Translations under genes and position numbers: made by a program
Origin: an uncultured Methanobrevibacter sp.
GTDB lineage: Archaea; Methanobacteriota; Methanobacteria; Methanobacteriales; Methanobacteriaceae
Assembly: GCF_902784195.1 (NCBI RefSeq)
Contig: NZ_CACZTX010000006.1
Coordinates: 186,001-250,000 of the forward strand
Length of the DNA: 64,000 nucleotides
Reading direction: 5' to 3'
Shown: piece by piece, positions 4,667-60,622 of the stretch
Layout of the letters: every line of letters starts with the position of its first letter
How positions within the stretch are numbered: the first letter of the stretch is position 1
Notes under the pieces: model-generated
Database searches by the model: none
The model's input: only the letters and a program-made list of their open reading frames with translations
Told to the model about the DNA's origin: nothing

Positions 4667-4720
4667 ATTACTCACAACTAGTGAAAATATTTTGATCAAA
4701 CTTTTATCACAAAAGTTTGG
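4667..4720 (-). repeat. Dispersed hairpin repeat, family B, copy 1
   Basis: Read on the minus strand, this is a hairpin (CCAAACTTTT with AAAAGTTTG) followed by ATCAAAATATTTTCA and a conserved tail. It aligns nearly base for base with 10121-10173, downstream of radA. It sits in the glyA-flavoprotein spacer and probably acts as a 3'-end or terminator element of glyA. Confidence 0.7.
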
Positions 4721-4769
4721 AAAAAGTTTTGGTCAAGGTTTTGCAGCCCAAAGGGCTGGAAAAGCTTGG
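4721..4769 (-). terminator. Structured gene-end repeat, family A, copy 1 (after glyA)
   Basis: On the minus strand it begins two bases after the glyA stop: CCAAGC, a hairpin with CAGCCC/GGGCTG arms, then CCTTGACCAAAACTTTTT. The outer arms (CAAG/CTTG) and the tail match the copies after ribB at 38659 and 38764, but the inner stem is different. The position suggests transcription termination or 3'-end processing of glyA. Confidence 0.7.
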
Positions 4770-4770
4770 A

Positions 4771-6045
4771 TTAGATATGTTCAATGAACTTGTATCCTTC
4801 TTCTTCTGTGAAAGCGTAGTGAATGGTTCTGTACTGAGACATGAATTCAGTGACTTCATCCTTGATGTCTACTTTGTCACCTTCAGCAACTCTCCAGATG
4901 AATTCAGCTACTTCTTCCATTTCTTTCTCTTTCATTCCTCTTCTGGTGATTTCTTGAGTACCGATTCTGATACCAGATGGGTCATCACTGTCATTTACAT
5001 TGTCACCAGGAATGAGGTTTTTGTTAAGAATTATGTTGTTTTGCTCTAATTCCTTAGCTAAGATGGTAGCTCTTTTAACATCTCTTACATCCATACCCAC
5101 TTGGTGGGATTCAGTATATCCTAAATCTTCACATAATACATTGAATCCTTGTTCAGCAAGAGCGCCAGCTAATGCTTTAGCGTTTTTAATGGTTTGTTTA
5201 GCATAAGCTTCTCCGAACTCAAGCATTTCAGCGGTAGCAATACCTAAACCAGCTAAGTGGTGTAAGTGGTGGTTACTTACTACACCAGGGAATACAGCAT
5301 TGTCAATTAATTTTTCATTTTTCTTATCTGATAAGATGATTCCTCCTTGAGGACCTGGGAAAGTCTTGTGGGTACTTCCCATAAGGACTTCAGCCCCTTC
5401 TTTTAAAGGATCTTGGAATTGTTTACCTGCAATCAATCCGAGTACGTGAGCACCGTCATACATGATGGTTGCGCCTACTTCGTTAGCTGCATCTACAACT
5501 TCGGATACAGGGTGTGGGAAGAGGAATAAGCTTCCTCCAAAGAGGATGATTTTTGGTTTTTCCTCTAAGATCATTTTGTTCAATGCATCAGCATCAATAT
5601 TCATTACTTCTGGGTTAAATGGATGTTCTAAAGTTTTTAATCCTCTAATACCTGCAGCACTTACATTTGCATGGGAGATGTGTCCTCCGTAAGGAATGTT
5701 CATTGCAATCATTTTGTCTCCAGCATTAGCAAAACCGAAGAAAGCAGCGAGGTTTGCAGTTACACCGGAAACAGGTTGAACATTTGCATAGCTACAGTCA
5801 TAAATCTTACAGGATAATTGTTTTGTAATGTCTTCAATTTGGTCTATGTAGGTACATCCTTGGTATAATCTTTCGTAAGCTTGTCCTTCAGCATATCTGT
5901 GAGCCAAATCTGAAACCATTGCAGTTGTAACAGCATTACTTGTGGTATTTTCACTAGCAATCATGTTAATGCTGTCTCTCATCCAGTCATTATGAACTCT
6001 CATCAAGTCATTAATCTTATTCATATCTTCTTCATATTGATACAT
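4771..6045 (-). CDS. glyA: Serine hydroxymethyltransferase
   Basis: A PLP enzyme of 424 residues that interconverts serine and glycine with transfer of a one-carbon unit; in methanogens the carrier is tetrahydromethanopterin. The N-terminus contains MIASENTTS, the PLP lysine lies in [12 protein letters not shown], and DGAHVLG gives the cofactor aspartate. The length is normal for the archaeal type. A U-rich 412-base leader region separates it from hdrA. It is followed by two hairpin repeats and then by the flavoprotein gene on the same strand. Confidence 0.97.
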
Positions 6046-10120: not shown

Positions 10121-10173
10121 AATTACTCCCAACTATTGAAAATATTTTGATCAAACTTTTTTTAAAAGTTTGG
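10121..10173 (-). terminator. Dispersed hairpin repeat, family B, copy 2 (after radA)
   Basis: It starts directly after the radA stop on the minus strand: CCAAACTTTT, a short A-rich loop, AAAGTTTGATC, AAAATATTTTCA and a conserved tail. It matches 4667-4720 with only a few differences, mainly in the loop. The position fits a terminator or 3'-end element. Confidence 0.7.
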
Positions 10174-11109
10174 TTAGTCTACAATACCATCAGTGGTTAC
10201 TTTAAATACAGCTTCTCCTTCTGGTAAGTGAGGGCTGTCCACTAATCTAGCAATTCTCTTACCTGCTAAACCTTTTTTCAACCAGATTCTGTAAGTTGAA
10301 GCGTGTCCTAAAACGTGTCCACCAATAGCTTTTGTTGGACTTCCGAAGAATGCATCAGGTCTTGCTTGAACTTGGTTTGTAAGGAAAACCGCTACATTAT
10401 AGGTATTTGCAACTTGTTGCAATGCATGCAAGTGTTGGTTTAGTTTTTGTTGTCTTACAGCTAAAGATTCTCTTCCAACATATTCTGCTCTGAAATGAGC
10501 CATAAGAGAGTCGACAATAACCAATCTTACATTAACGCCGCTTTGGATTAATTCATTGATTTTTTCAGCCATTAAGATTTGGTGAGAAGAGTTGAATGCT
10601 CTTGCAATGTGAATCTTTCTTAACACTTCTTCATGATCAAGGCCAAATGCATCTGCAATTTGTTCAACCCTTTCAGGTCTGAAAGTGTTTTCTGTATCAA
10701 TGAATACGCATTCTCCATCTAAACCACCTTTTTCTTTAGGCAATTGGACAGTAACAGCCAATTCATGAGAAATTTGACTTTTACCTGATCCGAATTCACC
10801 AAACACTTCAGTAATAGCTTGAGTTTCGATTCCGCCACCGATTAACTCATCAACACCTTTACTTCCAGTGGTTATGCGACCAACATCACGTCTTCTTTCC
10901 ATTACATCAAATGCTGTTTCAAAATCAATTTTTTCAGCTCTACGTGCTGCTTCAATAACCTTTTCAGCTACTCCTTCACCGATTTCTGCCTTAACAGACA
11001 ATTCCTTAGCAGTTGCAGTAGCTAATCTCATCATATCAGCAAAGCCAGCTTCTCTTAATTTTTCAGCAGTTTTTTCTCCAACATTAGGTAAGTCTTCAAG
11101 TTCTACCAT
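10174..11109 (-). CDS. radA: DNA repair and recombination protein RadA
   Basis: The archaeal RecA/Rad51 strand-exchange ATPase, 311 residues. The N-terminal helix-hairpin-helix domain reads [17 protein letters not shown]. The Walker A motif GEFGSGKSQ is near residue 105 and Walker B VIVDS near 200; loop regions ([28 protein letters not shown]) are as in the family. I placed the start at 11109 (MVELEDLP), preceded by GGTTGAT. It lies 56 bases downstream of the RPA gene on the same strand, so a single-strand-binding protein and its recombinase probably form one operon. Confidence 0.97.
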
Positions 11110-11165
11110 AATTATCAACCCATTAAACAAATTTATTAAATTTCATCATACTATAAAATTAAGGC

Positions 11166-29057: not shown

Positions 29058-29091
29058 TTCAAACTTTTAAAAAGTTTGAACAATTTTTTTC
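29057..29091 (+). terminator. Terminator after the marker 11 gene
   Basis: A long perfect inverted repeat, GTTCAAACTTTT with AAAAGTTTGAAC, begins in the stop codon and is followed by a run of seven T. The core resembles family B hairpins elsewhere in the window. Confidence 0.8.
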
Positions 29092-38658: not shown

Positions 38659-38701
38659 CCAAGCTTTTTGACTTCGTCAAAAACCTTGACCAAAATTTTT
38701 T
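38659..38701 (+). terminator. Structured gene-end repeat, family A, copy 2 (after ribB)
   Basis: It begins on the base after the ribB stop: CCAAGC, a stem TTTTTGAC/GTCAAAAA with loop TTC, then CCTTGACCAAAATTTTTT. Outer arms CAAG and CTTG also pair. The same layout follows glyA with a different inner stem. Confidence 0.75.
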
Positions 38702-38736
38702 GCAATTAAATTAAAAAACTAGCAATTGATTAAAAA

Positions 38737-38839
38737 AAAACAACTAAGAAGGGAAATTATATACAAGCTTTTTGACTTCGTCAAAAACCTTGACCAAAAA
38801 TTCCTAAAATTACTAAAAACAACTAAGAAGGGAAATTAT
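38737..38839 (+). repeat. Duplicated hairpin and leader unit before tfrA
   Basis: A leader segment with ACAACTAAGAAGGGAAATTA occurs at 38737-38760 and again at 38816-38839, where it forms the ribosome-binding site and start of tfrA. Between the two lies a second copy (38764-38802) of the hairpin found directly after ribB. The spacer is therefore a tandem duplication of hairpin plus leader; the first leader copy reads ATA instead of ATG and is a dead start. Confidence 0.8.
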
Positions 38840-40496
38840 GGAAATTAAAACTATCACAACTGATGTATTGATTATAGGTTCTGGTGGTGCAGGCTGTAGA
38901 GCAGCAATTGAAGTGTCCAATCAAGGAAAGGAAGCATTGATTGTTTCAAAAGGATTGACTTTCAGATCAGGCTGTACTGGAATGGCTGAAGGTGGATACA
39001 ATGCTGCACTTGGACTTGTAGACCCAGAGGATAGTGTAGAAGCGCATATTAAAGACACCTTAAAAGGTGGTAGCTACCTTAATGACCCTAAATTAGTAGA
39101 CATTCTAATCAATGAATCACCTGACAGACTCCGTGACTTGGAAGAGTATGGCGCCCTCTTTGACAGACAGGAATCCGGTGAATTGAACCAAAGGCCATTT
39201 GGTGGTCAAACCTATAGAAGAACCTGTTTCCAAGGAGACAGAACCGGCCATGAAATCATGACTGCACTTAAGGAAGAAATCATCAAGCGTGGCATCAAGA
39301 CCATTGATGAAGTGATGATTACAGCACTTATCAAGGATGACTCAAACAACATCCTCTCAAAAGTGATCGGTGCAGTTGGACTTGACCTCAAGAACAATGA
39401 CATCATCTATTTCCAAGCTAAAGCTGTTGTTCTTGCAACTGGTGGATCCGGTCAATTGTTCCCTGTAACCTCAAATACAACCCAAAAGAATGGGGATGGA
39501 TTTGCACTTGCATGGAATGTTGGAGCAGACCTGATTGATATGGAAGAGATACAGTTCCACCCAACAGGTATGGTCTATCCGGATTCAAGAAAGGGAGTTC
39601 TTGTAACTGAAGCGGTAAGGGCTGAAGGCGGAAGACTCATCAACAGCGAAGGTGAAAGGTTCATGGGCCGATACGATGACCGTATGGAACTTGCTACCCG
39701 TGACGTTGTTGCAAGGTCAATCTACAATGAAATCATGGAAGGAAGAGGAACCGAACATGGTGGAGTCTACCTTGATGTAAGCCACCTCGACCCAGACTTG
39801 ATTGATGAAAAGCTTGAAACAATGGTGCTTCAGTTTGAAGACATTGGAGTGGACATAAAAACCGAACCAATGGAAGTTGCACCTACTGCACACCATCATA
39901 TGGGAGGGGTCAGAATCAACGAAGATGGTCAATCCACTGTTGAAAACCTATTCGCTTGCGGTGAAGTATGTGGAGGAGTCCATGGTGCTAACCGTCTTGG
40001 AGGTAATGCACTTGCAGACACTCAAGTGTTCGGTAAAAGAGCAGGATTTGCTGCAGCTCTTGCATGTGACTTGACTGTCATGCAGTACAATTTCACAGCT
40101 GTTGAAGAGGAAAAGAATAGAATAGAATCATTGATGAAGGAAGGTTCCATCGATCCAATAGCTATGAAGAAGGAAATCCAGCAATTGATGTGGGAAAAAG
40201 TCTCAATTGTAAGAAATGAGCAAAACCTAAAGTCCGCTCTTGAAAGACTTCTTGAAATGAAAGAGGAATTGAATGACCTCAATGTTGATGACAGGACTCA
40301 ATTCAATGAATCACTCCTTACCGCTCTTGAAGTAATCAACATGGTTGAAATCTGTATCCTTATCGTAAAATCTGCAATACTCAGAAGAGAAAGTAGAGGA
40401 GCACACTTCAGAGAAGACTTCCCAGAAACTAACGATGAGCTTTGGAAAAAGAGCATTATCATGGGACCAAATAAGATTAGATTTGCTAAACGTTAG
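38838..40496 (+). CDS. tfrA: Thiol:fumarate reductase subunit A (fumarate reductase/succinate dehydrogenase flavoprotein)
   Basis: The FAD subunit that reduces fumarate to succinate using coenzymes M and B in methanogens, feeding the incomplete reductive TCA route. At 552 residues it has the FAD fold VLIIGSGGAGCRAA, the loop SGCTGMAEGGYNAAL, ATGGSGQLFP, the catalytic HPTGMV, TEAVRAEGGRLIN and HHHMGGVRI, and the flavin-site CGEVCGGVHGANRLGGNALAD. TfrB (iron-sulfur subunit) is not in this window; in this genus the subunits can be unlinked. The start has a GAAGGG site in a duplicated leader. It could also serve as a generic FAD reductase, but the motifs fit TfrA well. Confidence 0.9.
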   Translation: MEIKTITTDVLIIGSGGAGCRAAIEVSNQGKEALIVSKGLTFRSGCTGMAEGGYNAALGLVDPEDSVEAHIKDTLKGGSYLNDPKLVDILINESPDRLRDLEEYGALFDRQESGELNQRPFGGQTYRRTCFQGDRTGHEIMTALKEEIIKRGIKTIDEVMITALIKDDSNNILSKVIGAVGLDLKNNDIIYFQAKAVVLATGGSGQLFPVTSNTTQKNGDGFALAWNVGADLIDMEEIQFHPTGMVYPDSRKGVLVTEAVRAEGGRLINSEGERFMGRYDDRMELATRDVVARSIYNEIMEGRGTEHGGVYLDVSHLDPDLIDEKLETMVLQFEDIGVDIKTEPMEVAPTAHHHMGGVRINEDGQSTVENLFACGEVCGGVHGANRLGGNALADTQVFGKRAGFAAALACDLTVMQYNFTAVEEEKNRIESLMKEGSIDPIAMKKEIQQLMWEKVSIVRNEQNLKSALERLLEMKEELNDLNVDDRTQFNESLLTALEVINMVEICILIVKSAILRRESRGAHFREDFPETNDELWKKSIIMGPNKIRFAKR

Positions 40497-45071: not shown

Positions 45072-45112
45072 AAAAAAATAAAATAAGATAAGTTTTAGCT
45101 ATCTTATTTTAT
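45072..45112 (-). terminator. Terminator of the protease-adhesin gene
   Basis: A 13-bp perfect stem (45078-45090 with 45100-45112), whose upstream arm includes the stop codon, is followed on the minus strand by seven T. Confidence 0.75.
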
Positions 45113-48100
45113 AACTACCTTGGAAGTCCTTTTACTTGCCTTATAATACTTGTCTCCAGCGAATTTTACAGTTACCTTATAGGTTTTCTTCTTGGAAAGC
45201 TTTATTTTAACTGTTGCAACACCTTTCTTATTAGTTTTTGCTGTGTACTTTTTCTTATTTATGATGAAAACAATCTTTCTGCCTTTGATTACTTTCTTTC
45301 CATTTTTCAAAGTTGCAGTTAGTTTCTTGACTTTTTTCTTAGCCTTGAAAGTCTTCTTAGGAACATACAATTTGGTAGCCTTCTTGACTATCTTCTTAGC
45401 TACAGTCCTTTTGATTGTTATCTTTTTAGTCAAGGAACTGTCTTTATAGTAATCGTCACCAAAGACTATCTTCACAATGTAATTTCCATTGCTCAATTTT
45501 GAAAGCCCAGTCAATTTGGCTTCACCGTTTGCGTTTGTGGTTGCAGTTTTTGTCAAGACAACCTTATCATTTAGGCTAACGATGAATTTAATTGCCTTAT
45601 TTGGAAGTGCATTGTAGTTGTCATCTATCAAAACAACCTTGAATTCATCCCCTTTTATCAAGGTCTCTTCAACTATGATATGTGGACTGTTTCTTTTTGT
45701 CACATTTACGGTGAATGTTTCATTGGAAGATTTGTAATAGCTGTCTCCAATGAATGAAGCCATGAACATGTAATTTCCTTCCACAAGATTTAAGCTAAAT
45801 TTAGCGGTTCCATTTTCATCCAAAAGCAATTTTGCAGGAGAGAAACTTAGATTGTTGTCACTTTCAATCAATGAAACTGTAATTTCCTTACCAACTACAG
45901 GATTGAGATTTTGATCCAGCAAAGTGATTATCACTCCTTCATTGGATTTGGACAATATTGCCTTATTTTCAATATCCTGGAACTTGGTGTTTCCTTCATA
46001 ATACAAGTTCAAGACATTTGAATTTGTAATGTTGCTTGGCTTGAATCCTGCATAATCGAAACTGAATGCGATAGGGAGAACCGCTTTTGCCCGATTAAGG
46101 GATAAGCTTAACTTAAGCACACTGGACTCACCTTCACCTAAAGAGCCTAAATGCCATACCTTGGTATTCTGATTGAATGAACCCTTAATGATCTGGAAGC
46201 TTTTTATGATTATTGAATCATCAAGATCCATGCTGATGTTGAGGTCATTCACCAAGTCACCTTCATTTGATACTGTAATGACAAGGTCAATCAAGTCACC
46301 TACCTTGTAAGTGCTGCTGTTTGACTTTATGCTAAGGCAAATATCACTGACCCCTGAAGTGTAGGCCTTTAGACATACATTAGCTTCTTTCAAGTCATAG
46401 TCTTGAGCATATTGGTAGAACTTGATTACTTTCAAGCCGTCTTCATAAAGATTCTTGTAGTCCACAAGGTCAATCCAGTTTATTCCATCCATACTGATAA
46501 ATGATTCATTAGGATTTGCGCTTGCTCCACTGCTATAGCCTTCCCTTTTTGATTCAATAGCTATCGGATAGCATGAATCGGGAGTGGTCAATTTTACGGC
46601 TATCTTGAATATATCGTTTTTGGCAAGCTCCACATATTCATCCAATTTGATTGTATGGTATCCTGCACCTTTTATGAGGCCCTCTTGAATATATTTGCTT
46701 ATTCCATTTACAGTGATGTTTACTAGATATTCACTGTCTCCAAAGGTGTATAATCCAAATGCAGTCAATGGATTGTTGTTTTTAGCCAGGAATTGATTTG
46801 CAAGCCAAGCAGTATGGGAGTTGAATCCCAATGACTCAAATGTATTCCCAAGAATGTCATATTGGTAAATGTTCTTGTAGTTTGTAATGTTTTCTACATT
46901 TGCAATTGCCATAGCGGAGATTGTATCAAGACCGAATCCTGCAAATGCCTTGTCATAGTAGGATATGTACCAGTAGCCATCATATCCATGGTCTGTTCCC
47001 CAACTGTTCTTTATTATGAATGCCCCATCGCCAGGAGGGGTAATTGCAAAATTTTCCTTTTTGTAATTGTCATCCCAACCAATGAGAGTTACTGCATGAT
47101 TAGAGGTATCAATGACATCATGATAATAGTCCGGTTCGTATTGGAATGAATCGTCTGCCTGCATTGAAGTGTACAATGCCCCATAAGTCATGATAGCATA
47201 CTTGATTTGGTCCAAATCCTTATAGCTTAGACGCACCGGAATCAAGAGAACATCCTGCACATGCTTTGTAAGGTTCAGTTTGGTTGGAGAGCTTGTATCC
47301 CAATCGCTGAATGGATCATCACTCTCTTCTACAGGTCCGCTCCAGCGCAAGAGATATGCAAGGGACATGTATTGGTTTCCGCCGTCTTTCCAATCAGTAC
47401 CATTCAATCCATAGAGACCCATCAGGTTTTTCATATTGTTTTCAGAGAGGTCATATGAAATGTTTTCATATTTCAATAGATAGGATTCAAGTGCTGCAAT
47501 TGTTGTAAATGCCCAGCATGAGCCTGAACCTCCTTGGTTACGAATTGGAGTGACCAATCCATAATCCCTTAAGTCATATGATGAAGGAAGGTCAGTGAGC
47601 AATCCGTCATCAAATGCTTTTGAGACTATTATTTGATCTTCAAGGCAAAGCAATAGGTCATCTCGCACGGTTTTTACATAATTATTGTTGAAATTCACAT
47701 TTGCCATGTTTACATTGCCATTCAAATTGAAGAAGGTTCCATTGTCATCGCTTATTCCATTTGCTTGATTGCTTGAGACTGTGACATTATGGATTTCAAG
47801 AAGATTTGCCTTGTTGGATATTGCAGAACCGAATGTGTAATCTCCATTGAGCATGTTGCCCTCTATTGTAGAGTTGATTATGAACACGTTGTGGCTTGCC
47901 CAATTGCAGATTCCTCCTCCCATGGAGTAGTTTGAATTGACTGTATTGTTTGCTATTGTTGTGTTGTAGACAACAAGGATTCCGCTGTAATCATATATGG
48001 CTCCTCCACTACCGTATGTTCCATTGACAGAGTTGTTTATGAAATTGGAATTCAATATTGTCATTTCACCCATATCATTGATGATTGCGCCTGCATAAGC

Positions 48101-49018
48101 GTCTGCACTTCCATTTGCTGTATTTCCTTCAAATATGGAATTGTAGATTCTGACGAATCCCTTGTCATTGTATATTGCTCCACCGCTTGCAGGATATGTT
48201 TTCTGAGCATAGTAATAGATATAATCCTTTACAGAGTTGTTCTTGAATGTGGTATATACAAAGTTTACAGCACTTTGGTTAATGTAAACCGCTCCTCCAT
48301 AGTAGGAATTGCCTCTTGTGAATGTCAGGTTTACAAAGTTTACAAGAGGACTTACAGCAATATATGCGAGTGGAGGTGTGATGAAGAATATTCCATTGCC
48401 GTATCCGTTTCCTTCACCATCAATGATTGTATTCAATGCGCTTTGGCCAATCAGATTAAGATTTTTGCTTATTGTCATCCGTCCTGAAATGGTATATGTT
48501 CCATCTGCCAAAAAGATGTTTGATTTGGAGTTAGTGTCATTTATGAAATAATTATAAGCACTGGAAATTGTTTTGAATGGGTTTGATTGGGTTCCTAACT
48601 CCTCATCTCCATCATAACTTGAGTTTACGAAAATAGTGTTTGAATCGGATACGTTAAAGTCATATGTAAGCATTTCAGACTTTAGATTGATGTAATCTGA
48701 ATAGTCTGTGTAGATGTCACCTTGACTCTGGGAATTGCTTTCATCAAGAATCTCATCATCAATACTTCCAAGACTATTCTCATTTGAATCAGAGCCTGAA
48801 TTTGTTTCTGTATCATCATTTTCATCTATTTCAATTGAATGAAGTGTTTCATCATCAATTGAATCAGAATTTATCTCATTTAGTTCAGTGCTTGTTTGGT
48901 AATTAATTTCATTATTCTCATTTAGGATAATTGAATCATCTGCAGCTGCAAAGCTTGCAGGAATCATCAATAAAAGCATGATAATTAATGAAATTAAAAT
49001 GCAGTGCTTAATTTCCAT
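45104..49018 (-). CDS. Adhesin-like protein with papain-family cysteine protease domain
   Basis: A secreted protein of 1304 residues. In order: signal peptide (about 1-25); acidic Ser/Asp/Glu linker to about 125; parallel beta-helix repeats (about 135-460, GGAIYNxxG units); a C1A protease domain from about 485 (SYDLRDYGLVTPIRNQG, GSGSCWAF with the catalytic Cys near 500, NHAVTLIGWDD with His near 638, KNSWG with Asn near 669); a lectin-like region (about 700-860); a CARDB/DUF11-like domain (about 900-1000); Ig-like repeats; and a lysine-rich end. The catalytic triad is complete, so an active surface protease is plausible. The leader TTGGGGTTAA resembles that of the gene at 61503. First of three adhesin-like genes in tandem. 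Confidence 0.9.
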   Translation of the reverse strand: MEIKHCILISLIIMLLLMIPASFAAADDSIILNENNEINYQTSTELNEINSDSIDDETLHSIEIDENDDTETNSGSDSNENSLGSIDDEILDESNSQSQGDIYTDYSDYINLKSEMLTYDFNVSDSNTIFVNSSYDGDEELGTQSNPFKTISSAYNYFINDTNSKSNIFLADGTYTISGRMTISKNLNLIGQSALNTIIDGEGNGYGNGIFFITPPLAYIAVSPLVNFVNLTFTRGNSYYGGAVYINQSAVNFVYTTFKNNSVKDYIYYYAQKTYPASGGAIYNDKGFVRIYNSIFEGNTANGSADAYAGAIINDMGEMTILNSNFINNSVNGTYGSGGAIYDYSGILVVYNTTIANNTVNSNYSMGGGICNWASHNVFIINSTIEGNMLNGDYTFGSAISNKANLLEIHNVTVSSNQANGISDDNGTFFNLNGNVNMANVNFNNNYVKTVRDDLLLCLEDQIIVSKAFDDGLLTDLPSSYDLRDYGLVTPIRNQGGSGSCWAFTTIAALESYLLKYENISYDLSENNMKNLMGLYGLNGTDWKDGGNQYMSLAYLLRWSGPVEESDDPFSDWDTSSPTKLNLTKHVQDVLLIPVRLSYKDLDQIKYAIMTYGALYTSMQADDSFQYEPDYYHDVIDTSNHAVTLIGWDDNYKKENFAITPPGDGAFIIKNSWGTDHGYDGYWYISYYDKAFAGFGLDTISAMAIANVENITNYKNIYQYDILGNTFESLGFNSHTAWLANQFLAKNNNPLTAFGLYTFGDSEYLVNITVNGISKYIQEGLIKGAGYHTIKLDEYVELAKNDIFKIAVKLTTPDSCYPIAIESKREGYSSGASANPNESFISMDGINWIDLVDYKNLYEDGLKVIKFYQYAQDYDLKEANVCLKAYTSGVSDICLSIKSNSSTYKVGDLIDLVITVSNEGDLVNDLNISMDLDDSIIIKSFQIIKGSFNQNTKVWHLGSLGEGESSVLKLSLSLNRAKAVLPIAFSFDYAGFKPSNITNSNVLNLYYEGNTKFQDIENKAILSKSNEGVIITLLDQNLNPVVGKEITVSLIESDNNLSFSPAKLLLDENGTAKFSLNLVEGNYMFMASFIGDSYYKSSNETFTVNVTKRNSPHIIVEETLIKGDEFKVVLIDDNYNALPNKAIKFIVSLNDKVVLTKTATTNANGEAKLTGLSKLSNGNYIVKIVFGDDYYKDSSLTKKITIKRTVAKKIVKKATKLYVPKKTFKAKKKVKKLTATLKNGKKVIKGRKIVFIINKKKYTAKTNKKGVATVKIKLSKKKTYKVTVKFAGDKYYKASKRTSKVVIK

Positions 49019-49041
49019 AATTTAACCCCAATCTTTCTTTA

Positions 49042-49150
49042 ATTAATTTTTAAATTTTAATTTTCAATCCCAATATTCATAATTTATTAAATTAATTTTT
49101 AAATTTTAACTTTTCAATCTCAATATTCATAATTTATTAAATTAATTTTT
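49042..49150. repeat. Tandem ~50-bp repeat upstream of the protease-adhesin gene
   Basis: A unit starting ATTAATTTTTAAATTTTAA and containing CAATATTCATAATTTATTAA begins at 49042 and 49091, with a partial third copy at 49141. The copies differ by about two positions. They lie in the promoter region, so copy number might affect expression. Confidence 0.75.
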
Positions 49151-49166
49151 AAAAAATTTCAAAATT

Positions 49167-52028
49167 CTATTTTATTACAACCTTTCCTTTTTTGCTGATT
49201 TTCTTAAATGTATTGTCTCCTGCAAATTTAACTGTAAACTTGTAGGTTTTCCTTTTGGATAACTTGACTTTCACTTTTGCAATCCCTTTCTTATTGGTTT
49301 TTGCAGTGTACTTTTTGCCATTTACAGTAAAAGTGAGCTTTTTACCCTTAATGGCCTTCTTATTTGTGGCCTTAAGGGTAGCATACAAGTATTTGATCTT
49401 TTTACTTCTCTTGTATGTTTTCTTAGGTATAGTCAATTTGACTTTCTGTGGATTGACCTTTACTTTCGCTACAGCAAAACTACCATTGTACTTTTCATCT
49501 CCAAGGAATGAAACTACAACAGGATAGGTTCCTTTCTTGCTTAGAGCGATTTTTACGCTTGCTACACCTTTAGCATTTGTAGTGCGTTTGTAGATCTTGC
49601 CATTGAATGAAATCAATACCGCTTTATTTGCTAAAAGATTTCCTTTGCTGTCCTTTAAGCTAATTGAAAATGCTTTTCCTGCTTTCTTGCCATTGATTTT
49701 GGTATTTACAGTAGTGGTTTTCATAGCTTTAGCTACAATGCTTGTAGCTACCATAACAGTTGACCCGCCACTAGAACCATTAATATTGATATTTCCACCT
49801 TGAGGGATATTGATTCCAGATTCCCCCTCAATTGAAGTGACATTGAATTTAAATTGCTTAAGTCCATCGAATGAAGAGACATTTTCTATATTGATTGGAT
49901 TGCTGGTTGCCAAGATTCCCCTTTCAGAATTTATCATGAGCAAGTCAACGGTCTCTCCAACAACATTCTCATTAATCTTTTCTACAGCGATTCCACTGAT
50001 ATTGATAGCTGGAACCTCTATTTCCAATGGATTTGTAGAATTCTTAGCATTGACTAAAACTATAGTGTCTCCATTATCCACTATGAACTTGATGTTTGAA
50101 ATTTCGAATGAATCCACATCAAAACTGTTTTTATCAACAACAAATATTGGATTTCCGCCTGCAGATTTGATTGCTGTTGCATTGTTTCCGATTATTGTCA
50201 AATTCTTGTTTATGATTATATTTGAGATGTTTTCACAATTGCAATTGCTTAAATCGATTATGTCGCCATCTTCTGCATTGTCAATGATTTTTTGAAGTTT
50301 TTCTGCACTTATATTAGATATGATTGAATTTGTATTGAATTCCAAGCTTTGATTGTCTATTCTTAAACTAATTAGATTTTCCTTTGAGGATGAGCTTAAT
50401 AAGACACTGGCCATATTATTTTCCAATAATCCATTGGTTTGATTCAATTCTCCATTATTGCTTGCAATCTTAAATTCCTTTTCAAATGGATAATAATTGG
50501 CGTTTTCAATTAAGCTTCCATCATTATAATGGTTTAAGAGAACCTTGATGTCATAGTAATTTAATTTCTTATCGAAATTGGCTATATTATAATCATTTGC
50601 CAAATTTTCTTCAAGATTGTCCAATAGCTCTACAGACAAGCCCATAACAACCCATCTGTTAATGTTGATCTTATCCAACTTTTGAGGATTGTTTGTTCCC
50701 CACCAATTGTCTTCCAAATAGATTTTTCCGCCGTTTGGATAGTAAACTGTTGTATCCTTATAGATTGCCATGCCTTTCTCAGTATCCTTATTGTTGAAGA
50801 TGAAAGAGTTGCTGATGTTCAAGTCAACATTTCTATCAAGAATAGCTCCTCCTCCACGTGTATTGATAGCGCTGTTGTTTACAAACTGGCTATTTCTAAT
50901 GATGACATTTCCTACCCTGCCATCTGTTTTTCCAATGAGGTTAATTGCCCCGCCTCCATAATTTGAGACTGTTCCTGTAGCAACGTTCTTAATGAAACTG
51001 ACATTGTTCATTGGGAAATTGCCCTCAGTGTTTTGCATAAAGATCGCTCCTCCAGAGAGTGCCTTGTTGCCTATGAATACTGTGTTTTCAATTGACTTGA
51101 ATCCGTCAACATACTGCATATAGATAGCTCCACCACCGAAGGTGTTTCCTTTTGCAGTGTTGTTTATGAATTCACATCCGGAAATGTTCAAGCTTGGAGG
51201 ATAGGATAAGCTAGTATAATAGCCGTCACAATAGATAACTCCACCGTTTCCTCCACTGTCTGTAGGAATGACCTGATTGTTTGTAAAACTTGAATTGGCT
51301 ATATTCAAATTCCCTACAGAGTAGATTACTCCACCATTTCCATTCTTTACAATGCATCCTGAAACATCAAGGTTTTCTATGGTCAAATTGCCCATATTTG
51401 TAAATGCACCTCCAGATGCCCCTGTATTGACACCATCAATTATCTTCAGGTTTCTTATAGTCAAGTTGGAATTGTAAATGGAGAATATTCCACCTGTATA
51501 TCCAACACCATCAAAGGTTGTCTTGTCGATTCCAGCGCCTTCTATGGTAAGATATGTGTCATCCAAGTCAATGCCAAAAACCACATATGATCCTTCGCCA
51601 ACGGAAATCTTATGAGGTCCATTTTCAGACACTGCCAATTGAATAGCCCTTTCTATAGTATTGACTGGATTTTCTTGGGAACCGTCATTGTCATCATTTC
51701 CATCTTTGGAAACATATATTGAATCTGAACCTTCCTTAATCAAATCATCATTATTGGAACTTGAATCTGAACCCTCCTTAATCAAATCATCATTATTGGA
51801 ACTTGAATCTGAAACTTCATTGGATTCAGACAAGCTTTCATCACTAATCATTTCAGAACTTGATTGGGAATCGTCAATAATCTCCAAATCAGAACTGGAA
51901 CTTAAACTCAAATCAGCGCTGCTATCTTCAACGACATCTGACGAATCAGCTGCACTGACTGAATTGAATCCTAAAATTATCATGAAAAGAAGTGATAATA
52001 GGATTAAAAATTTCTTATCTAATTTCAA
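49167..52028 (-). CDS. Adhesin-like protein (beta-helix plus Ig-like repeats)
   Basis: A secreted protein of 953 residues. Signal peptide (KKFLILLSLLFMIILGFNSVSA), an acidic serine-rich linker to about 105, the cap YVSKDGNDDNDGSQENP, beta-helix coils to about 430 ending in the DNWWGTNNPQ motif, a further helix-like region, then two Ig-like domains with a lysine-rich end. The last 200 or so residues are nearly identical to those of the giant adhesin at 52231. The start codon is TTG, five bases after GAGGTG, the same leader as the giant adhesin. Presumed cell-surface attachment protein; no sorting motif is seen. Confidence 0.87.
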   Translation of the reverse strand: MKLDKKFLILLSLLFMIILGFNSVSAADSSDVVEDSSADLSLSSSSDLEIIDDSQSSSEMISDESLSESNEVSDSSSNNDDLIKEGSDSSSNNDDLIKEGSDSIYVSKDGNDDNDGSQENPVNTIERAIQLAVSENGPHKISVGEGSYVVFGIDLDDTYLTIEGAGIDKTTFDGVGYTGGIFSIYNSNLTIRNLKIIDGVNTGASGGAFTNMGNLTIENLDVSGCIVKNGNGGVIYSVGNLNIANSSFTNNQVIPTDSGGNGGVIYCDGYYTSLSYPPSLNISGCEFINNTAKGNTFGGGAIYMQYVDGFKSIENTVFIGNKALSGGAIFMQNTEGNFPMNNVSFIKNVATGTVSNYGGGAINLIGKTDGRVGNVIIRNSQFVNNSAINTRGGGAILDRNVDLNISNSFIFNNKDTEKGMAIYKDTTVYYPNGGKIYLEDNWWGTNNPQKLDKININRWVVMGLSVELLDNLEENLANDYNIANFDKKLNYYDIKVLLNHYNDGSLIENANYYPFEKEFKIASNNGELNQTNGLLENNMASVLLSSSSKENLISLRIDNQSLEFNTNSIISNISAEKLQKIIDNAEDGDIIDLSNCNCENISNIIINKNLTIIGNNATAIKSAGGNPIFVVDKNSFDVDSFEISNIKFIVDNGDTIVLVNAKNSTNPLEIEVPAINISGIAVEKINENVVGETVDLLMINSERGILATSNPINIENVSSFDGLKQFKFNVTSIEGESGINIPQGGNININGSSGGSTVMVATSIVAKAMKTTTVNTKINGKKAGKAFSISLKDSKGNLLANKAVLISFNGKIYKRTTNAKGVASVKIALSKKGTYPVVVSFLGDEKYNGSFAVAKVKVNPQKVKLTIPKKTYKRSKKIKYLYATLKATNKKAIKGKKLTFTVNGKKYTAKTNKKGIAKVKVKLSKRKTYKFTVKFAGDNTFKKISKKGKVVIK
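51727..51810 (-). repeat. Two 42-bp tandem repeats in an adhesin linker
   Basis: Two consecutive 42-base units, differing at one base, encode SDSSSNNDDLIKEG twice in the acidic linker after the signal peptide. It is a slippage-prone length-variable site. Confidence 0.8.
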
Positions 52029-52180
52029 ACTTACACCTCATTAAAGAATTTAACAATTTTCATATCTAATTAAATTTTAAAATTCAAGCATCATTCAATA
52101 CTAAAATTTTAAAATTCAATCTTAATCATTTAATTAACTTGTCATACTCTCAAAATTACATGTTAAAAAAAATAAAATAT

Positions 52181-52220
52181 AAGAATAGATAAAATAGCTT
52201 AAAAACCATTATCTATTCTT
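52181..52220 (-). terminator. Terminator of the giant adhesin gene
   Basis: A 12-bp perfect stem (AAGAATAGATAA/TTATCTATTCTT) with a 16-base loop lies 11 bases after the stop, followed on the minus strand by T-rich sequence. Confidence 0.65.
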
Positions 52221-52230
52221 TTTCAATTGT

Positions 52231-55200
52231 TTATTTTATTTTGACTTTTCCTTTTTTGCTGATTTTCTTGAAGGTATTGTCTCCTAAGAATTTTACAGTG
52301 AACTTGTAAGTTTTCCTCTTGGATAACTTGACTTTCACTTTTGCAACACCTTTCTTATTGGTTTTTGCAGTGTATTTCTTCTTATTGATAATGAAGACAA
52401 GCTTTTTACCTTTAATGGCTTTCTTGTTAGTAGCCTTAAGGGTAGCGTACAAGTATTTGGTTTTCTTGCTTCTTTTGTATGTTTTCTTAGCTACAGTCAA
52501 TTTGACCTTTTGTGGGTTGACTTTAACTTTAGCTACAACAAAGCTTCCGTTGTATTTTTCATCTCCAAGGAATGAAACTACAACTGGGTAAGTTCCTTTC
52601 TTAGTAAGTGCAATCTTAATGGTTGCAACACCTTTAGCATTGGTGGTGCGTTTGTAGATCTTGCCGTTGAAGGAAATCAATACTTGTTTTCCAGCTAAGA
52701 CATTTCCTTTACTGTCTTTTAAGGTAATTGAGTAGTTCTTACCAGCTTTCTTACCGTTAATCTTGGTATTGACAGTAGTGGTTTTCATAGCTTTTGCTAC
52801 AATGCTTGTAGCTACCTTAGGAGTTGTTCCTCCACTTGAGCCGTTGGTATTGATGTTTCCGCCTTGTGGAATGTTGATTCCATTTCCATCATTTAATCCT
52901 GCTATTTCAAAGTCAAATGCTTTAGCACCTTCTGGTAAATTATTGTCCTTGATGTTTATTGGGTTGGAAGGAGCAAGAACTGCCCTTTCTGATTCAAGTT
53001 CGAATAATGTAATTGAAGATGGCACTACATTTTCATTTGCAGGGCTTACAGTATTGTTTGTAAGCTCAATAGCTGGGTTTACAATGGATAAATCATCAGT
53101 TCCATTTGTAGAGGTAGCTTTTACAAGCACATCACCATTATTTGCAATGAATTCAACACCACTGATGCTTACATTGCTTACATTGGATGCAATGTTGAAT
53201 ACAGGGTTTCCATCACCAGCAGTTGCAATTGATACATTGTCAGCAACAATAGCAATGTCTTTAGTGATATTGATTCCTGAAATGTCAACAAATTCCATAT
53301 TGCTTAAGTTCAATACTCCTCCTTCAGGAGTTTCATCAATGAGTTTTTGAAGGTCTTCTGAAGTTTTTGGAGCTTCCTTAACATTGACTTTTACAGTTGC
53401 GCTTGCAGGATTATAATTACTGTCTCCAGCAAAGCTGATTTCTGCATTATAGCTTCCTACAGGAACAGAGCTTAAGTCAATGCTTGCAATACCTGACTCA
53501 TCAGTGATTCCAGTTAAGTTAATTTCATCATTGACCTTTACAGTGATTGTTTTTCCTGCTACAGGAGAACCTTCACTGGTCAAGCTAACATTCAAGACAC
53601 CTTCACCAAAGTTGACAGTGATTTCATCCTCAAGAGATAAAATGGTATCCTTAGGAGTTAGAGCATTGAATTCAATGCCTACACTTGCATCAGAGGATTT
53701 CACGCTAATGCTGTTTTGACCTTCTGCTGCAGTGTAAGTGGATTGAGCCACTAAGCCAACGGTTTCTACAGCAGTCTTATCTAAACTGCCAGTTTCTGAT
53801 GCGAAATCTACAGTTAATTCCTGTGCCAATTTGGTGTCAAGCTCTTTGATTTCATTAGTAGTGCTGTCAAGATAGTGGTTGAAGTCTACAGCAATAGGAA
53901 CTTGAGCACCGGTTTGGACATTGGAAGTGTCTGCAACTACATTCATGATAATCCAATTTGATACATCCACTTCAGCGCAATCGATTTCATCATATCCGTA
54001 ATCGTCTTCGTAGGTACCGGATCCTGTTAAGGATTTAGGATTGTCATTGGTTCCCCACCAGTTGTATTGGGCATTTACGACATTGTCTTCTCCATCGTTG
54101 AAGATGAGTTTGCCAGTAGTGTTGGTGAGTAAGATACAGTAGTTTACAGTTGCCTTGTTACCGTTGTAGATTGCATCACCATTATAACTAGTTCCAGCAG
54201 AGTTGTTTACAAACATGGATTTTGTGATGGTTGCATCTCCATGGAATCCTATGTAAATAGCTCCACCATCTCTGTATGCATTGTTGTTGATGAATACTGA
54301 TTCGGTTACATCCAATTTGTTGGAAGCACGAATAGCTCCACCGTAGGATACAGTGTTAGTGTTGTTGATGAATTCAGAGCCTTTTACAGTGATGTTAGCA
54401 TCAGAACTGCCTATTACAATACCTTGTCTTGCCTTGTTGTTATAGAATTTGGAATTTTCTATAATTACGTTAGCTTTGCCGCTTGAGACATATATGATAC
54501 CATAATCGGAAGTGGATGCAGTAACTTCATTATCCTTGAATAGAGTGTTGTTTATGATAATGGTTGCATCGCCGGAAGTTTGGATTACATCTCCACCATT
54601 ATGGCCGGAAACTTCACTGTCCTTAATAGTTAAGTTGCCGTAGGTAGTGATTAAGTCTCCAGCTCCAGGATTGTTTACAATAGTTACATTGTCCAATACT
54701 GTTTCTTTTGCAAAGGAGTATACAGCTGCGCCGTATCCATGGTTTGCACCAGTGAGAACCACATTGATAAGTGAGAATTTGCTTGCATCAGAACTTACAT
54801 TGAATAATCTTCCTTGGCCTTCACCGTCAATTACAACATTGCCTTCACCGGTAATTGTTAAGTCTTTAGTGATTTGATATCCGTTACCTTTGTAGGTTCC
54901 TTCCTTAATTACGATTTGACCGGATCCGGTTTCAGCAGTTGCTATTTGAATAGCTTTTGCAATGCTTGCTACAGGAGCTTCTGCAGAACCGTTGTTTCTG
55001 TCAGATCCATCAGGAGAAACATAAACGATTCCAGTGTAAGGTTCAGGAATTTCTCCAACAAAGACTATGTCTTTAGTTGCTTGAGCGCATGTTGCAGTTA
55101 CTTTTGCATTTGCATCACTTGCAGTGAATACTGCATTTCCACTTTCACCATTATTGATTGTTAAGGTTTCAGGAATTACAGTACCGTTTTCTGCAGCAAA

Positions 55201-58200
55201 TGTTACAGTGTATGCTTCCTTAGGAATAACTCCACCAGCCAATTCTTCAATTTCACCAGCAGAGGTCATTACATGATTAAAGTCAACAGTTACTTTTACT
55301 TCGTCACCAGGAAGAACATCAGTAGCGTTTGCATCCACATTCATTATTACCCATTTGTCAATGGTAATGTTGGTACCGTTTACTAGACTTGTTGGATCAT
55401 TGGTTCCCCACCAGTTGTTGTTTGCAATAGCAATACCTTGTCCATATATAGCATCATAACCAGTTGAAGTTTTAGTTTCAAGATTATGCTCATTTACAAT
55501 GGAAGAATAAGAAACATATAAGGTAGCTTTGTCTACGAAAATAGCTGGTGCTTTACCTTCTGTTCCTTTATTGTTTTCTATAATGGAATTGGTAATGTTT
55601 AAAGTAGCTATAGGTTGGTTTGTAACTGATTCAATTTTTATAGCAGTACCTTGTGATTTAGCACTATTATTGACTAATATACAATTATTGATAGTAGCAG
55701 TACAATTATACAATTCTAAAACACCAGGACCATTAATTGCTGAGTTATCAGTGAAATTGGAATTTTCTATTGTAATCTTTTCAGCCATTAAGTATCCTGC
55801 ACCACCATTGTTTGCAACGTTGTTTACAAAGTTAGAATTGTTGATTTTTAAGTTAAGACCGTTTTCATAAGCTGAGTAGGTAATGCCTAAAGCTCCACCC
55901 CAACTTCCACCATTGTTGTTGGTGAAAACGGAATTGTTAATAATCAAATTACCTTTGGTGTATTCTGTAAAGATAGCTCCTCCACGACTGCTTGCTACTA
56001 AATTATCAAATTTACAGTTATTAATGATTATATTTATTAATAACAAACCTGAGCGAGAACCGCTAGCTTTAATGGCTGAACCATATCTTCCACCATTGTT
56101 GTTTGCAAATGCTATGTTATCAAATGATACTACACTGCTTAGAACTGTGAAAATGCAATTTGATTCTAATCCAGTACCATCAATCACTACATTTCCTTCA
56201 CCAGTGATGGACATTGCTCCAGTGCTATTGATTGTGATGTTGTTTTCATTATAGGTACCTTCCTTGATGATGATTTGACCGGATCCTGCTTGTGCAAGTT
56301 CAACTGCTTTTGCAATTGTTGCTACAGGAGCATCTTCTGCACCATTATTGGAATCAGAACCGTCTTTGGATACATAAATTATGCCTTCATAAGCATTGCT
56401 TACTACATTGACAGCTATAGGAACGGTTTGTGCTCCAGATTCGACATTCACAATGTCTTCTCCAGCAGCCACACCAGTGTATACAAACTTAGCTTGACCG
56501 TTTTCAGTGATAGCTTCAGCCTTATCCAAACTGCCAAGGGTAGCGGTAGCCTTTACATCCACTTCAGGAATGCTTTCAACCAATTCGCTTGTTGTGGTTC
56601 CATCAGTGTAATGATTGAAGTCGACAGTGATTTCCACTTCATCACCAAGGTTAATGCTCTCAGCAGTCAAGTTGCTGTTTACACCCATAATTACCCATTT
56701 TGATACATCAGGCATAGGGCAGTCTACATCTTCCTCTTCCCAATCGTCATAGTAGGAGTCAGCACCAACTAAGCTTACAGGACTGTTGTTGGTTCCCCAC
56801 CAGTTATAATTAGCGTTAGGTGCGTTATCTTCGTTGGCATTGAATAGGAGAACTTTTGAACTGCCTTCTTTTGCTAAGATTACTGAGTAATTGATGGTTA
56901 ATTTACCAGCTGAGGATATGGCATCCCCATTATAATCTGTTTGGTAATTTGCACAAGTGTTGTTTATGAATACAGATTTAGTGATATTTGCATCAGCATT
57001 TTTGCTAAGGAAAATTGCTCCACCTTCTCTACCTGCTTTGTTATTGGTGAATACGGAGTTTGCAATATTTACCTTGCCGTCTGAGTGGACCACTCCACCA
57101 GCACCAACAGTTGCTACATTATTGTCAAATAATGAATCCTTGATTACAAGATTATTGGTTCTGCTTGAATCATAGATTAAACCTTGTCTATCAATGTTAT
57201 TGGTAAAGTTAGATGACTCAATTGTAACACTGGAAGTGCCTGTTGCAAATATAAAGCCCATAGTACCGCTATCAGTTAAGTTAGCATTGTTGTTGTCAAA
57301 CACTGTATTGTTGATTATCAAGCTTGCGCTTGAAATGTAAATCATACCATCAGCACTGTGGTTAGCAATTACGGAATTGTCGATTTCCAAACTTCCGCCA
57401 TTTGCATAAATAACAGATACTGAAGAGTATCCGCCAGTAGCCTGGTTTTCATATAAGGTTACATTGTCCAACAATATATTTGCACCAGTTGAGTAAATTA
57501 CTGACCCATAGTTTCTGTTAGCCTTTGTAATGGCTATGTTCCTAAGGGTGAAGTTTTCTGTAGTGCTATTGACAGTGAAGATTCTAGCTTCATTGTTACC
57601 GTCAATGATCACATCACCGATACCGATAATTTCAAGATTTTTGATTATTTCAAAATTATTTTCAGTGTATGTGCCTGCATTGACGAATATCTTGCCTGTT
57701 CCAGCATCTCCAGTAGCTATTTCAATAGCTTTTGCAATAGTTGCTACAGGAGATTCTTCACTACCATCGTTTTCATCATTTCCATCTTTGGATACATAAA
57801 CGTCATGAGGAGCAACTGGAGCATTCACTACAATAGCGATAGGTACATTTGCAGCACCGGATGCGATGTTTGCAGTGTCTTCACCAGCAGCTGCAGCAGT
57901 GTATGTAAAGCTTGCCTGATTGTTTTCAGTTATTGCTTCAGCCTTATCCAAACTGCCTGTAGTAGCACTTGCAGTTACCTTAAGTTCAGGAATGGAATCT
58001 GCCAATTCGCTTACGGTAGTTCCGTCAGTGTAATGTTTAAAGTCAACAGTTATAGGTACAGTATCGCCTATTTCAATGTTTCCTGCACTAGCAGGTTCCA
58101 CATTCATGATAACCCAATTGTCTACACTAGCATCTGCCATTGCATCGTTAGGGTTGTCATTAGATCCCCACCAGTTGTAGTTTGCGTTAACTGTTTTGAC

Positions 58201-59358: not shown

Positions 59359-60622
59359 CAGTAGCTACAGTGTCTGCACTTGCACTAGCGGACATGATTA
59401 CCCAATTGGAAGCAGTTACATTGTCGAGCAATGCACTTGGGTTGTCATTGGTACCATAGAAGTTGTAGTTTGCATTTACAACTGCATTCTTATTGTTACC
59501 GATAGCATATTGGCCTTCAGCTAAGTCAAATGCATTGTATTCTACAGTTGTAGGAGCTGCTGAAATCCAAATTGCATATGCTGCAGCATTGTCATGGAAT
59601 GCATTTCCAGTTATGATGCTGTTTCCTTGAGCGGATGTTTGAGAAATGTAAATTAATCCTTTACAGTTTGAAGCAGTGAAATCGTTATCCTCAAAACTGC
59701 AGTTAGACACTGTTAAAAGTCCTGCCTTATTCTCTATGATACCCATTGTGTTTCCACTGATATTATAGAATTTACAATTTGAAACAACCCCTGTTGCAGT
59801 AGCTGCATTTACATAAATCACAGACCTTAAATATGATCCATCAGGTATTGCAATATCATGGAAAACTGAATTCTTAACATCCACTACAGAGTTACCTAAA
59901 ATTGCCAAATATGGTGCAGCACCAGAACTGGTACCAACAAGGCCATAGAATTCACAGCCATCTAATGTTGCTTTTGCATTATAAAACAATTTAATTGCAC
60001 CATTACCATTTCCAGGAACTGCATCAGTCAATTTACAGTTGTTCATTAACAATACTCCTTCACCACCAATATTTATAATTGGGTTGTTTTGCTTTGTAGG
60101 AGCAGTGAAAATCAAATTGTTTAATGTGAATGTTTTAGCATCATCTCCACTATAGGTAAATACATTTGCAGTTCCAGTTCTTGTGATTGTAGTGCCATCA
60201 GCACCATTAAAGGTAATTGATTTATCCAAAGTAATTGAACTGGATTGCTCATATGTACCTGCACCAATATTTATTGTAGAACCATCACCAGCAAGTTCAT
60301 AACCTTTGGCAATAGTTGCTACAGCGTTCTCTTCACTTAATCCATCATTAGAATCATCACCAGTTTTTGAAACGTAAATGGTTGATGCCCCGTCCTTTAA
60401 TGGAGCGGGTTCTAAGGATTTATCATCGGAATCGTCCACACCCACCTGAATGGAATCAGATATAGAATCATCCGTTTCGAGACTAACCTCATTTATAGCA
60501 TTATCGTCAATTGCAGCTACATCAGTTGCAATATCATCGCTTGCTGCAGAGACAGATGACACTGCCATACTTGCAACGCAGAATAACACTAGTAAAATAA
60601 GAAAAGTTCTTTTCATTTTCAA
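59336..60622 (-). CDS. Giant adhesin-like protein, N-terminal part (signal peptide and module 1)
   Basis: 428 residues with a signal peptide (RTFLILLVLFCVASMAVSSVSA), an acidic linker, the cap IYVSKTGDDSNDGLSEENAV and one beta-helix ending in NYNFYGTNDNP and WVIMSA. It stops at KIH just as the Ig-like domain begins, and that domain continues in the frame of the gene at 52231 (TQVKFTNADDT). One extra or two missing bases near 59350 explain the break. The start is TTG at 60622, five bases after GAGGTG, matching the adhesin at 52028; an ATG two codons later is an alternative. If the frameshift is real, a secreted short form is made. Confidence 0.85.
   Translation of the reverse strand: MKMKRTFLILLVLFCVASMAVSSVSAASDDIATDVAAIDDNAINEVSLETDDSISDSIQVGVDDSDDKSLEPAPLKDGASTIYVSKTGDDSNDGLSEENAVATIAKGYELAGDGSTINIGAGTYEQSSSITLDKSITFNGADGTTITRTGTANVFTYSGDDAKTFTLNNLIFTAPTKQNNPIINIGGEGVLLMNNCKLTDAVPGNGNGAIKLFYNAKATLDGCEFYGLVGTSSGAAPYLAILGNSVVDVKNSVFHDIAIPDGSYLRSVIYVNAATATGVVSNCKFYNISGNTMGIIENKAGLLTVSNCSFEDNDFTASNCKGLIYISQTSAQGNSIITGNAFHDNAAAYAIWISAAPTTVEYNAFDLAEGQYAIGNNKNAVVNANYNFYGTNDNPSALLDNVTASNWVIMSASASADTVATDDSSKIH

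Follow-up and report, generated by a model that had tools for sequence, protein, structure and literature searches.

Here, we describe a family of RNA hairpins dispersed behind the genes of an uncultured Methanobrevibacter sp., and propose that it forms the stem-loop half of a terminator, or of another 3'-end signal, that has spread as a repeat. The family itself is real, structured and dispersed, while its proposed function, with termination as the inferred step, is one to which we give about even credence. Unless a dedicated archaeal factor is found, we regard it as a variant of known hairpin kinds, most likely a terminator-like 3'-end element that is also a repeat, unmatched in Rfam in the stretches scanned. 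Its importance lies in the general view that archaeal genes can end with no need of a hairpin. A family whose arms and position behind core genes are fixed, and whose stems are exchanged, allows the contribution of a stem-loop to archaeal termination to be tested directly, and covariance models locate such gene ends in several archaeal groups. Swapping stems at fixed gene ends is also an uncommon way for a regulatory RNA to evolve.

The unit has the frame C-AAG-C-TTTT-[variable inner stem]-AAAA-C-CTTG-A[C/T]C-AAAA. Across the family the outer arms vary (CAAG/CTTG, CCAG/CTGG or CAAA/TTTG, then TTTT/AAAA), and the stem is followed by a conserved unpaired tail (ACCAAAA or ATCAAAA). The window, by which we mean the whole 64,000-nucleotide stretch analysed, holds two types: type A, C-AAG-C-TTTT-[inner stem]-AAAA-C-CTTG-ACCAAAA, and type B, CAAAC-TTTT-..-AAAA-GTTTG-ATCAAAA. 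Behind glyA, 2 nt past the stop codon, lies a type A unit (4727-4768, minus strand; CAAG-C-TTTT-C-CAGCCC-TTT-GGGCTG-C-AAAA-C-CTTG-ACCAAAA; minimum free energy -15.7 kcal/mol, z -2.96) flanked by a C at 4769, and after it come a CTTTTT tract (4721-4726, the T-run itself being 4721-4725) and, head to tail, a type B unit (4690-4719; CAAAC-TTTT-GTGAT-AAAA-GTTTG-ATCAAAA, then TATTTTC), all on the minus strand. Another type B unit (10145-10172, minus strand) stands behind a Rad51-family gene (ORF 10174-11130). At ribB, on the plus strand, the first type A copy (38660-38695) begins 1 nt past the stop codon and runs into a TTTTTT tract (38696-38701). The second copy (38764-38799) is identical to the first but lacks the T-tract; it lies just ahead of the next gene, with a copy of that gene's ribosome-binding region on either side. 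A 25-nt direct repeat, AAAAACAACTAAGAAGGGAAATTAT, is found to the left of this second unit (38736-38760, plus strand) and again at 38815-38839 (plus strand), where it extends to the start codon of ORF 38838-40496.

The original prediction had named three of these places, the glyA end and two at ribB, and all three hold a unit, but it overlooked both type B copies. The single plan that it gave for all three (CCAAGC, a hairpin, a shared motif, then T) holds for the arms and the hairpin, but ribB copy 2 has ATACAAGC in front instead of CCAAGC and is followed by ATTCCT, with no T-run; T does follow the glyA unit and ribB copy 1. The difference in inner stem to which it drew attention is also real, but since the glyA hairpin has TTTT/AAAA arms too, we align it as C-CAGCCC/GGGCTG-C versus TGAC/GTCA within the common arms CAAG-C-TTTT / AAAA-C-CTTG, with a C.C mismatch. 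Two further features of the window touch on the family. A palindrome, TTCAAACTTTTAAAAAGTTTGAACAA, lies between convergent ORFs (29058-29083); it is a symmetric relative of type B and would read alike on both strands. Past the T-tract, a second motif, (C)ACTAGTTGGGAGTAA, is present in the window (about 4683-4665, minus strand) and in many relatives, and it recurs at unrelated gene ends of the genus.

A genome-wide search for the motif next to hairpins and a covariance model had both been called for, and both were carried out. In the 2,046,587-base genome (18 contigs), CCTTGACCAAAA occurs 13 times, 8 forward and 5 reverse, against 0 and 0 for the reversed control, and all 13 exact occurrences fall on a hairpin. 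The model (R1) returned 58 matches at E<=1, several of which are opposite-strand shadows of the same palindrome. A loose 12-mer with two mismatches is found 17 times in the window versus 9.6 expected, which is weakly above chance (3/100 shuffles as high); therefore the signal is hairpin plus motif, and not the loose motif.

That a pairing kept while its bases change points to selection on RNA structure, as originally argued, is supported by the alignment of 16 copies (A2). Standard pairs fill 97.9% of its pair cells, both sides change in 7 of the 13 pairs, and covariation scores 0.328, whereas shuffles give 0.088 (0/500 reach the observed value) and slid partners no more than 0.064. Our regex search placed no requirement on the inner stem, and 461/558 inner positions pair (82.6%) versus a mean of 41.3% and a maximum of 47.7% for shuffled inner regions (126 distinct units, 96 with an inner region of 7-31 nt, comprising 87 distinct inner sequences). 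The same regex does demand pairing of the outer four arm bases and a nearly intact TTTT/AAAA, so outer pairing in the A3 alignment is partly built in; two of five measures on that alignment were not above shuffles (pairs with a double change, 141/500; pair types, 270/500). Folding of seven copies as RNA gave z of -2.3 to -5.0. In the genome itself we met neither of the patterns that had been named as fatal to the idea, namely copies that fail to pair or that lie in genes without regard to strand. Extra left arms (CCAAGCTTTT..) with no right arm were seen directly before complete units (L044, L049, L157, L174 and others), like duplicated halves.

The placement of the units is as regular as their structure. 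We took 45 of the 46 R1 matches with E below 0.001 (the one omitted is an opposite-strand shadow of another match, and 12 weaker matches were left out). Thirty of the 45 start between -15 and +10 nt from a same-strand stop codon (ORF of at least 80 codons), as do 137 of 8000 random points (1.7%). The usual distance is 0-6 nt past the stop codon, on the transcribed strand, and two of the 30 have the stop codon inside the unit, at 3 and 13 nt. None of the 45 is within a same-strand ORF and one is within an opposite-strand ORF frame; this is the glyA unit, in a frame (4717-5049) that is probably no gene. Among the remaining 15, one is behind a tRNA-Val (L004), three are 14-32 nt past a stop codon, five, chiefly the later members of a group, are 46-105 nt past one, and six have no ORF of at least 80 codons ending on their strand within 250 nt; in one of the six, a 70-codon ORF stops 2 nt ahead of the unit.

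The regex search gave a similar picture of strand in the genus. Of the 32 units in the genome itself, 25 are up to 60 nt behind a sense gene end and 1 behind an antisense one; for the 109 units of relatives these figures are 91 and 2, with 2/109 of the relatives' units within a same-strand and 2/109 within an opposite-strand ORF frame. A T-tract, defined as four or more T among the seven bases after the unit, follows 31/32 units in the genome and 103/109 in relatives, separated from the stem by the seven tail nucleotides (ACCAAAA). T-runs without a hairpin occur at many of the window's gene ends, a point against the terminator reading. The genes upstream of the units encode proteins with many core functions: 30 of 30 scanned (of 31 upstream ORFs) match a Pfam family, including KARI, IMP cyclohydrolase, ThiC, TsaD, DHBP synthase, the EF-1 exchange domain, SHMT, two Cpn60/TCP-1, tRNA synthetases, FtsZ, PII, Cdc6, Rad51, SufBD, and the ribosomal S2 and L15/L18e families, together with a few families of unknown function (DUF2207, DUF4013, DUF1246/1297).

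How might such a unit act? A stable hairpin on the sense strand directly behind genes speaks for a terminator. The RNA would fold while the polymerase leaves the gene, and the hairpin with its U-tract would act as a terminator of bacterial style, assisted by the stem-loop, that sets the transcript's 3' end and shields it, presumably alongside the U-tract/aCPSF1 route of archaea. Conservation of the arms and tail may reflect a factor that reads them, or it may result from copies arising by duplication or insertion, with exchange among them; in the latter case a gene end would keep its hairpin while the stem is replaced as a whole. Of the roles originally suggested, a terminator class or 3'-end signal fits best in position, strand and T-tract, from which we infer termination; the Altiarchaeales units described below, which have no T-tract, count against it. 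Several observations count against a terminator pure and simple. Termination alone does not explain the conserved arms and ACCAAAA tail. The second ribB copy lacks a T-tract and stands in front of a start codon, and six of the 45 matches, as given above, have no same-strand ORF end nearby. In addition, a gap of about 40 nt appears to separate the type B unit of glyA from the start of the following same-strand gene, and full termination there would thus need a promoter in the gap.

Among known systems, bacterial intrinsic (rho-independent) terminators are alike in having a hairpin and then a T-tract directly behind the gene on the sense strand, but the family differs from them in its archaeal host, fixed arms, C.C mismatch and conserved ACCAAAA tail, and in having far relatives without a T-tract. 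With the aCPSF1-dependent U-tract terminators of archaea it shares the T-tract at the gene end, but has a conserved hairpin ahead of the tract; passages of one account describe archaeal terminators as U-tracts for which a hairpin is not strictly needed (PMC8716108). In Haloferax, according to excerpts of another study, hairpins occur upstream of 503 termination sites and one terminated in a reporter (PMC7237163), and part of an inverted-repeat survey reports enrichment behind archaeal stop codons that is lower than in bacteria and differs between phyla (PMC13155455). As far as these portions go, the three papers leave room for a hairpin-assisted class of terminator. AT-rich stem-loops with T-runs near stop codons are described in low-GC firmicutes in a section of PMC1590033. 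Hairpins of DNA-uptake signals are similar as conserved dispersed sequences that also form terminator hairpins, from what portions of PMC2267715 state, but they are complementary pairs of the uptake word, whereas the arms here frame a free inner stem and are not known to serve in uptake. At the gathering score, no Rfam family matches the unit in the window, in L063, L211, L099, L182, L202 and L192, or in ten Thermococcus-like loci; the Rfam matches in those stretches are to tRNA, 5S and the FMN riboswitch only. Relaxed thresholds around the window copies gave below-threshold matches only, with none that identifies the unit. Our literature searches (titles, abstract openings and some passages) found no description of the hairpin family, and the words terminator, palindrom, stem-loop, hairpin and riboswitch are all absent from the M. 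ruminantium M1 genome paper.

Comparison of homologous gene ends within the genus suggests how the units evolve. Matches are held by 16 of 18 other genus genomes, with up to at least 82 in one genome; G011 in our set is presumably M. ruminantium. The glyA ends of 15 genomes comprise 5 with a strict unit, 5 with a decayed unit, 2 with another hairpin and then T, and 3 with neither, and the ribB ends of 15 genomes comprise 4 with strict units, 1 with decayed units and 10 with none, the decayed class being assigned by eye in both sets. The two unrelated hairpins behind glyA fold (G009, z -4.4; G002, z -3.0), as does one of the three ends with neither (G001, z -4.0). Folding is retained by four of the five decayed glyA units (z -3.0 to -5.5); the fifth, in G010, does not fold within the 65 nt tested, and in this genome 38 nt of the glyA tail, left arm included, are duplicated in tandem. 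The type B unit behind glyA shows a precise presence or absence between species, with G003 and G015 being without it.

Taking the genome's own first-position sites against homologous gene ends, 73 comparisons gave 39 with a strict unit and 34 with none. Eight of the 39 are identical in arms and inner stem, 30 have another inner stem and 17 another outer arm, and at one gene end (site 26) types A and B substitute for each other. The 30 exchanged stems and the A/B substitution thus imply that hairpins often persist at a gene end even when their whole sequence is swapped, and as the frame is common across the genus, the exchange is probably replacement by other copies. The relatives' loci were mostly chosen for holding a unit, which biases the figure of 34/42 unit-bearing gene ends; the glyA and ribB sets are unbiased.

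The family extends well beyond the genus. A gapped pattern of 26 specified bases, searched in contigs of 84,980 species, recovered 92 stretches, 87 titled Methanobrevibacter and five others, which come from three MAGs (Altiarchaeales B52_G2, Altiarchaeales SpSt-1148 and archaeon SpSt-1190). In these MAGs the exact arm matches lie in loci of 42-57% GC with their own distinct gene neighbourhoods. A second covariance model (R2), built from 38 hand-picked units of 93 distinct ones and slightly misaligned for the shortest type B units, gave 27, 7 and 48 matches in the three MAGs, respectively. At one Altiarchaeales locus (L146) a type A and then a type B unit follow tRNA-Pro, the same order as at the window's glyA. 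Matches to R2 at E<=1e-4 are present in 23 of 131 genomes of the window's phylum, and around G052 matches at E<=1e-5 are present in 67 of 201 genomes (a set in which G272 appears to be the same genome as G060), 56 from family f8 and 11 from others. We take f8 to be Thermococcaceae and call it Thermococcus-like. There, a tRNA gene ends 2-6 bases before the unit in 12 of 20 stretches (four genomes). In the Altiarchaeales the unit adjoins tRNA 3' ends at several loci, a T-tract follows 0 of 21 units and some units run against the gene's strand; the last two observations count against a universal terminator. Viruses were considered as carriers and rejected, viral contigs giving no match to the type A pattern and one (L211) to the type B pattern. 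Two other arrangements were seen: tandem arrays of type B in G019, G013 and G032 (including L061 and L249), which repeat roughly every 40, 45 or 93 nt, and, at about 1320-1640 of L182 (Altiarchaeales), a tRNA-like gene that seemingly has a long insert holding an opposite-strand unit, as judged by eye (ARAGORN reports no tRNA).

In light of this distribution, could the unit be first of all a mobile palindrome of the REP or MITE kind, inserting itself at the ends of genes and tRNAs, with any 3'-end role being secondary? We consider this somewhat unlikely, though it accounts well for the many copies, their patchy presence across distant archaea and their head-to-tail groups. REPs are short imperfect palindromes with a mismatch, present in many copies, extragenic, near gene 3' ends and in head-to-tail groups, with a conserved GTAG-type tetranucleotide at the foot of the hairpin. 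The family resembles REP/BIME elements (RAYT, Y1) as an extragenic, multi-copy, imperfect palindrome with a mismatch that lies at gene 3' ends in head-to-tail groups, but it is nearly one-sided in orientation in Methanobrevibacter, its gene-end positions are common to several species, and the Y1 transposase was not found in the element-bearing genus genomes. Specifically, Y1 (PF01797) was found in 0 of 10 such genomes (the present one included) and 0 of 3 Altiarchaeales MAGs, and was absent in 12 genus genomes searched and in G019 and G032; it is present in 7 of 40 genomes overall, 3 of which (G146-G148) carry units. RAYT/IS200-type mobilisation within the genus was rejected on this ground.

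Some evidence outside the genus suggests mobility. In the Altiarchaeales, direct repeats flank 9 of 21 units, at 8 loci of which several are tRNA tails, versus 1 of 63 control pairings, and 6 of 21 at a stricter score of 16; they include repeats of 33 nt at an apparent protein-gene end (L192) and of 29 nt beside a 5S rRNA gene (L202). In the Thermococcus-like genomes the unit ends an element of about 300 bp, whose terminal inverted repeats exceed every shuffle in 6 of 15 copies. Tail duplication behind these units was not above control (scores 7-12; control mean 9.2, maximum 24). Some units are like MITEs and the terminal hairpins of insertion elements in these inverted ends and in the Altiarchaeales direct repeats, but in Methanobrevibacter each is a lone unit of 25-44 nt, and in the genome studied here no inverted-repeat partner was detected (27 units; mean 11.8 versus 11.5 in shuffles). 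At ribB, a target-site duplication made of the 25-nt repeats was rejected after a comparison of 15 species by eye; tandem duplication is the better reading because G004, G000 and G005 have tandem copies of unit, spacer and RBS. Other high direct-repeat scores in the genome and its relatives were likewise set aside as tandem tRNA-Val (L004, L124, L127), tandem arrays (L061, L180) or low-complexity AT sequence (L059). Hence the mobile palindromic unit of the original prediction is borne out in part: the data suggest mobility outside the genus, but the repeats at ribB look like tandem duplication and Y1 is lacking in the genus genomes that bear the element. The Thermococcus-like repeat of about 300 bp (L289-L304, L305-L324) was itself seen after tRNAs and at the ends of other genes, and has a hairpin at its centre, for example GCGCTCCTTTGGAGCGC.

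A broader proposal, which we think unlikely, joins the two: a 3'-end RNA element common to the archaea, its frame and tail conserved across Methanobacteriales, Altiarchaeales and the Thermococcus-like genomes, that would be read by a common archaeal factor behind mRNAs and tRNAs while spreading and renewing its stem like a mobile hairpin, and would therefore be terminator and repeat in one.

Slightly less probable still is that the unit is no terminator at all and serves processing and stability in the 3'-UTR or trailer, with a protein reading the frame and the A[C/T]C-AAAA tail and the element marking or guarding the 3' ends of mRNAs and tRNAs. Such a role would suit arms and a tail that are conserved across distant archaea around a free inner stem, as well as the units that abut tRNA 3' ends in 12 of 20 Thermococcus-like stretches and at several Altiarchaeales tRNA loci, where the T-tract is absent. 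It would also suit an agreement between tail and stem, the pyrimidine of the tail being the same as that of the stem in 111 of the 121 distinct units counted (84 C-C, 27 T-T, 10 discordant; 5 units with G were left out). We treat this agreement as a hint of a contact, but A and B may be two old lineages, which would give the same count without contact. Also against a processing element are the T-tract that is nearly always present in the genus and the lack of a candidate protein. That the units are chance AT-rich palindromes of an AT-rich genome has, despite the weak enrichment of the loose 12-mer in the window, practically no probability, being refuted by the controls (13 exact copies versus 0 for the reversed motif, covariation exceeding both shuffled and slid controls, and exact arm matches in loci of 42-57% GC).

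Lastly, two features of the window lie apart from the units. An FMN riboswitch (Rfam RF00050, 102 bits) is located upstream of ribB in this archaeal genome (37704-37854, plus strand), giving ribB a riboswitch in front and the hairpin family behind; the FMN riboswitch class is best known from bacteria. Very long ORFs with internal repeats are clustered at 45104-60622 (minus strand), and possibly encode surface adhesin-like proteins.
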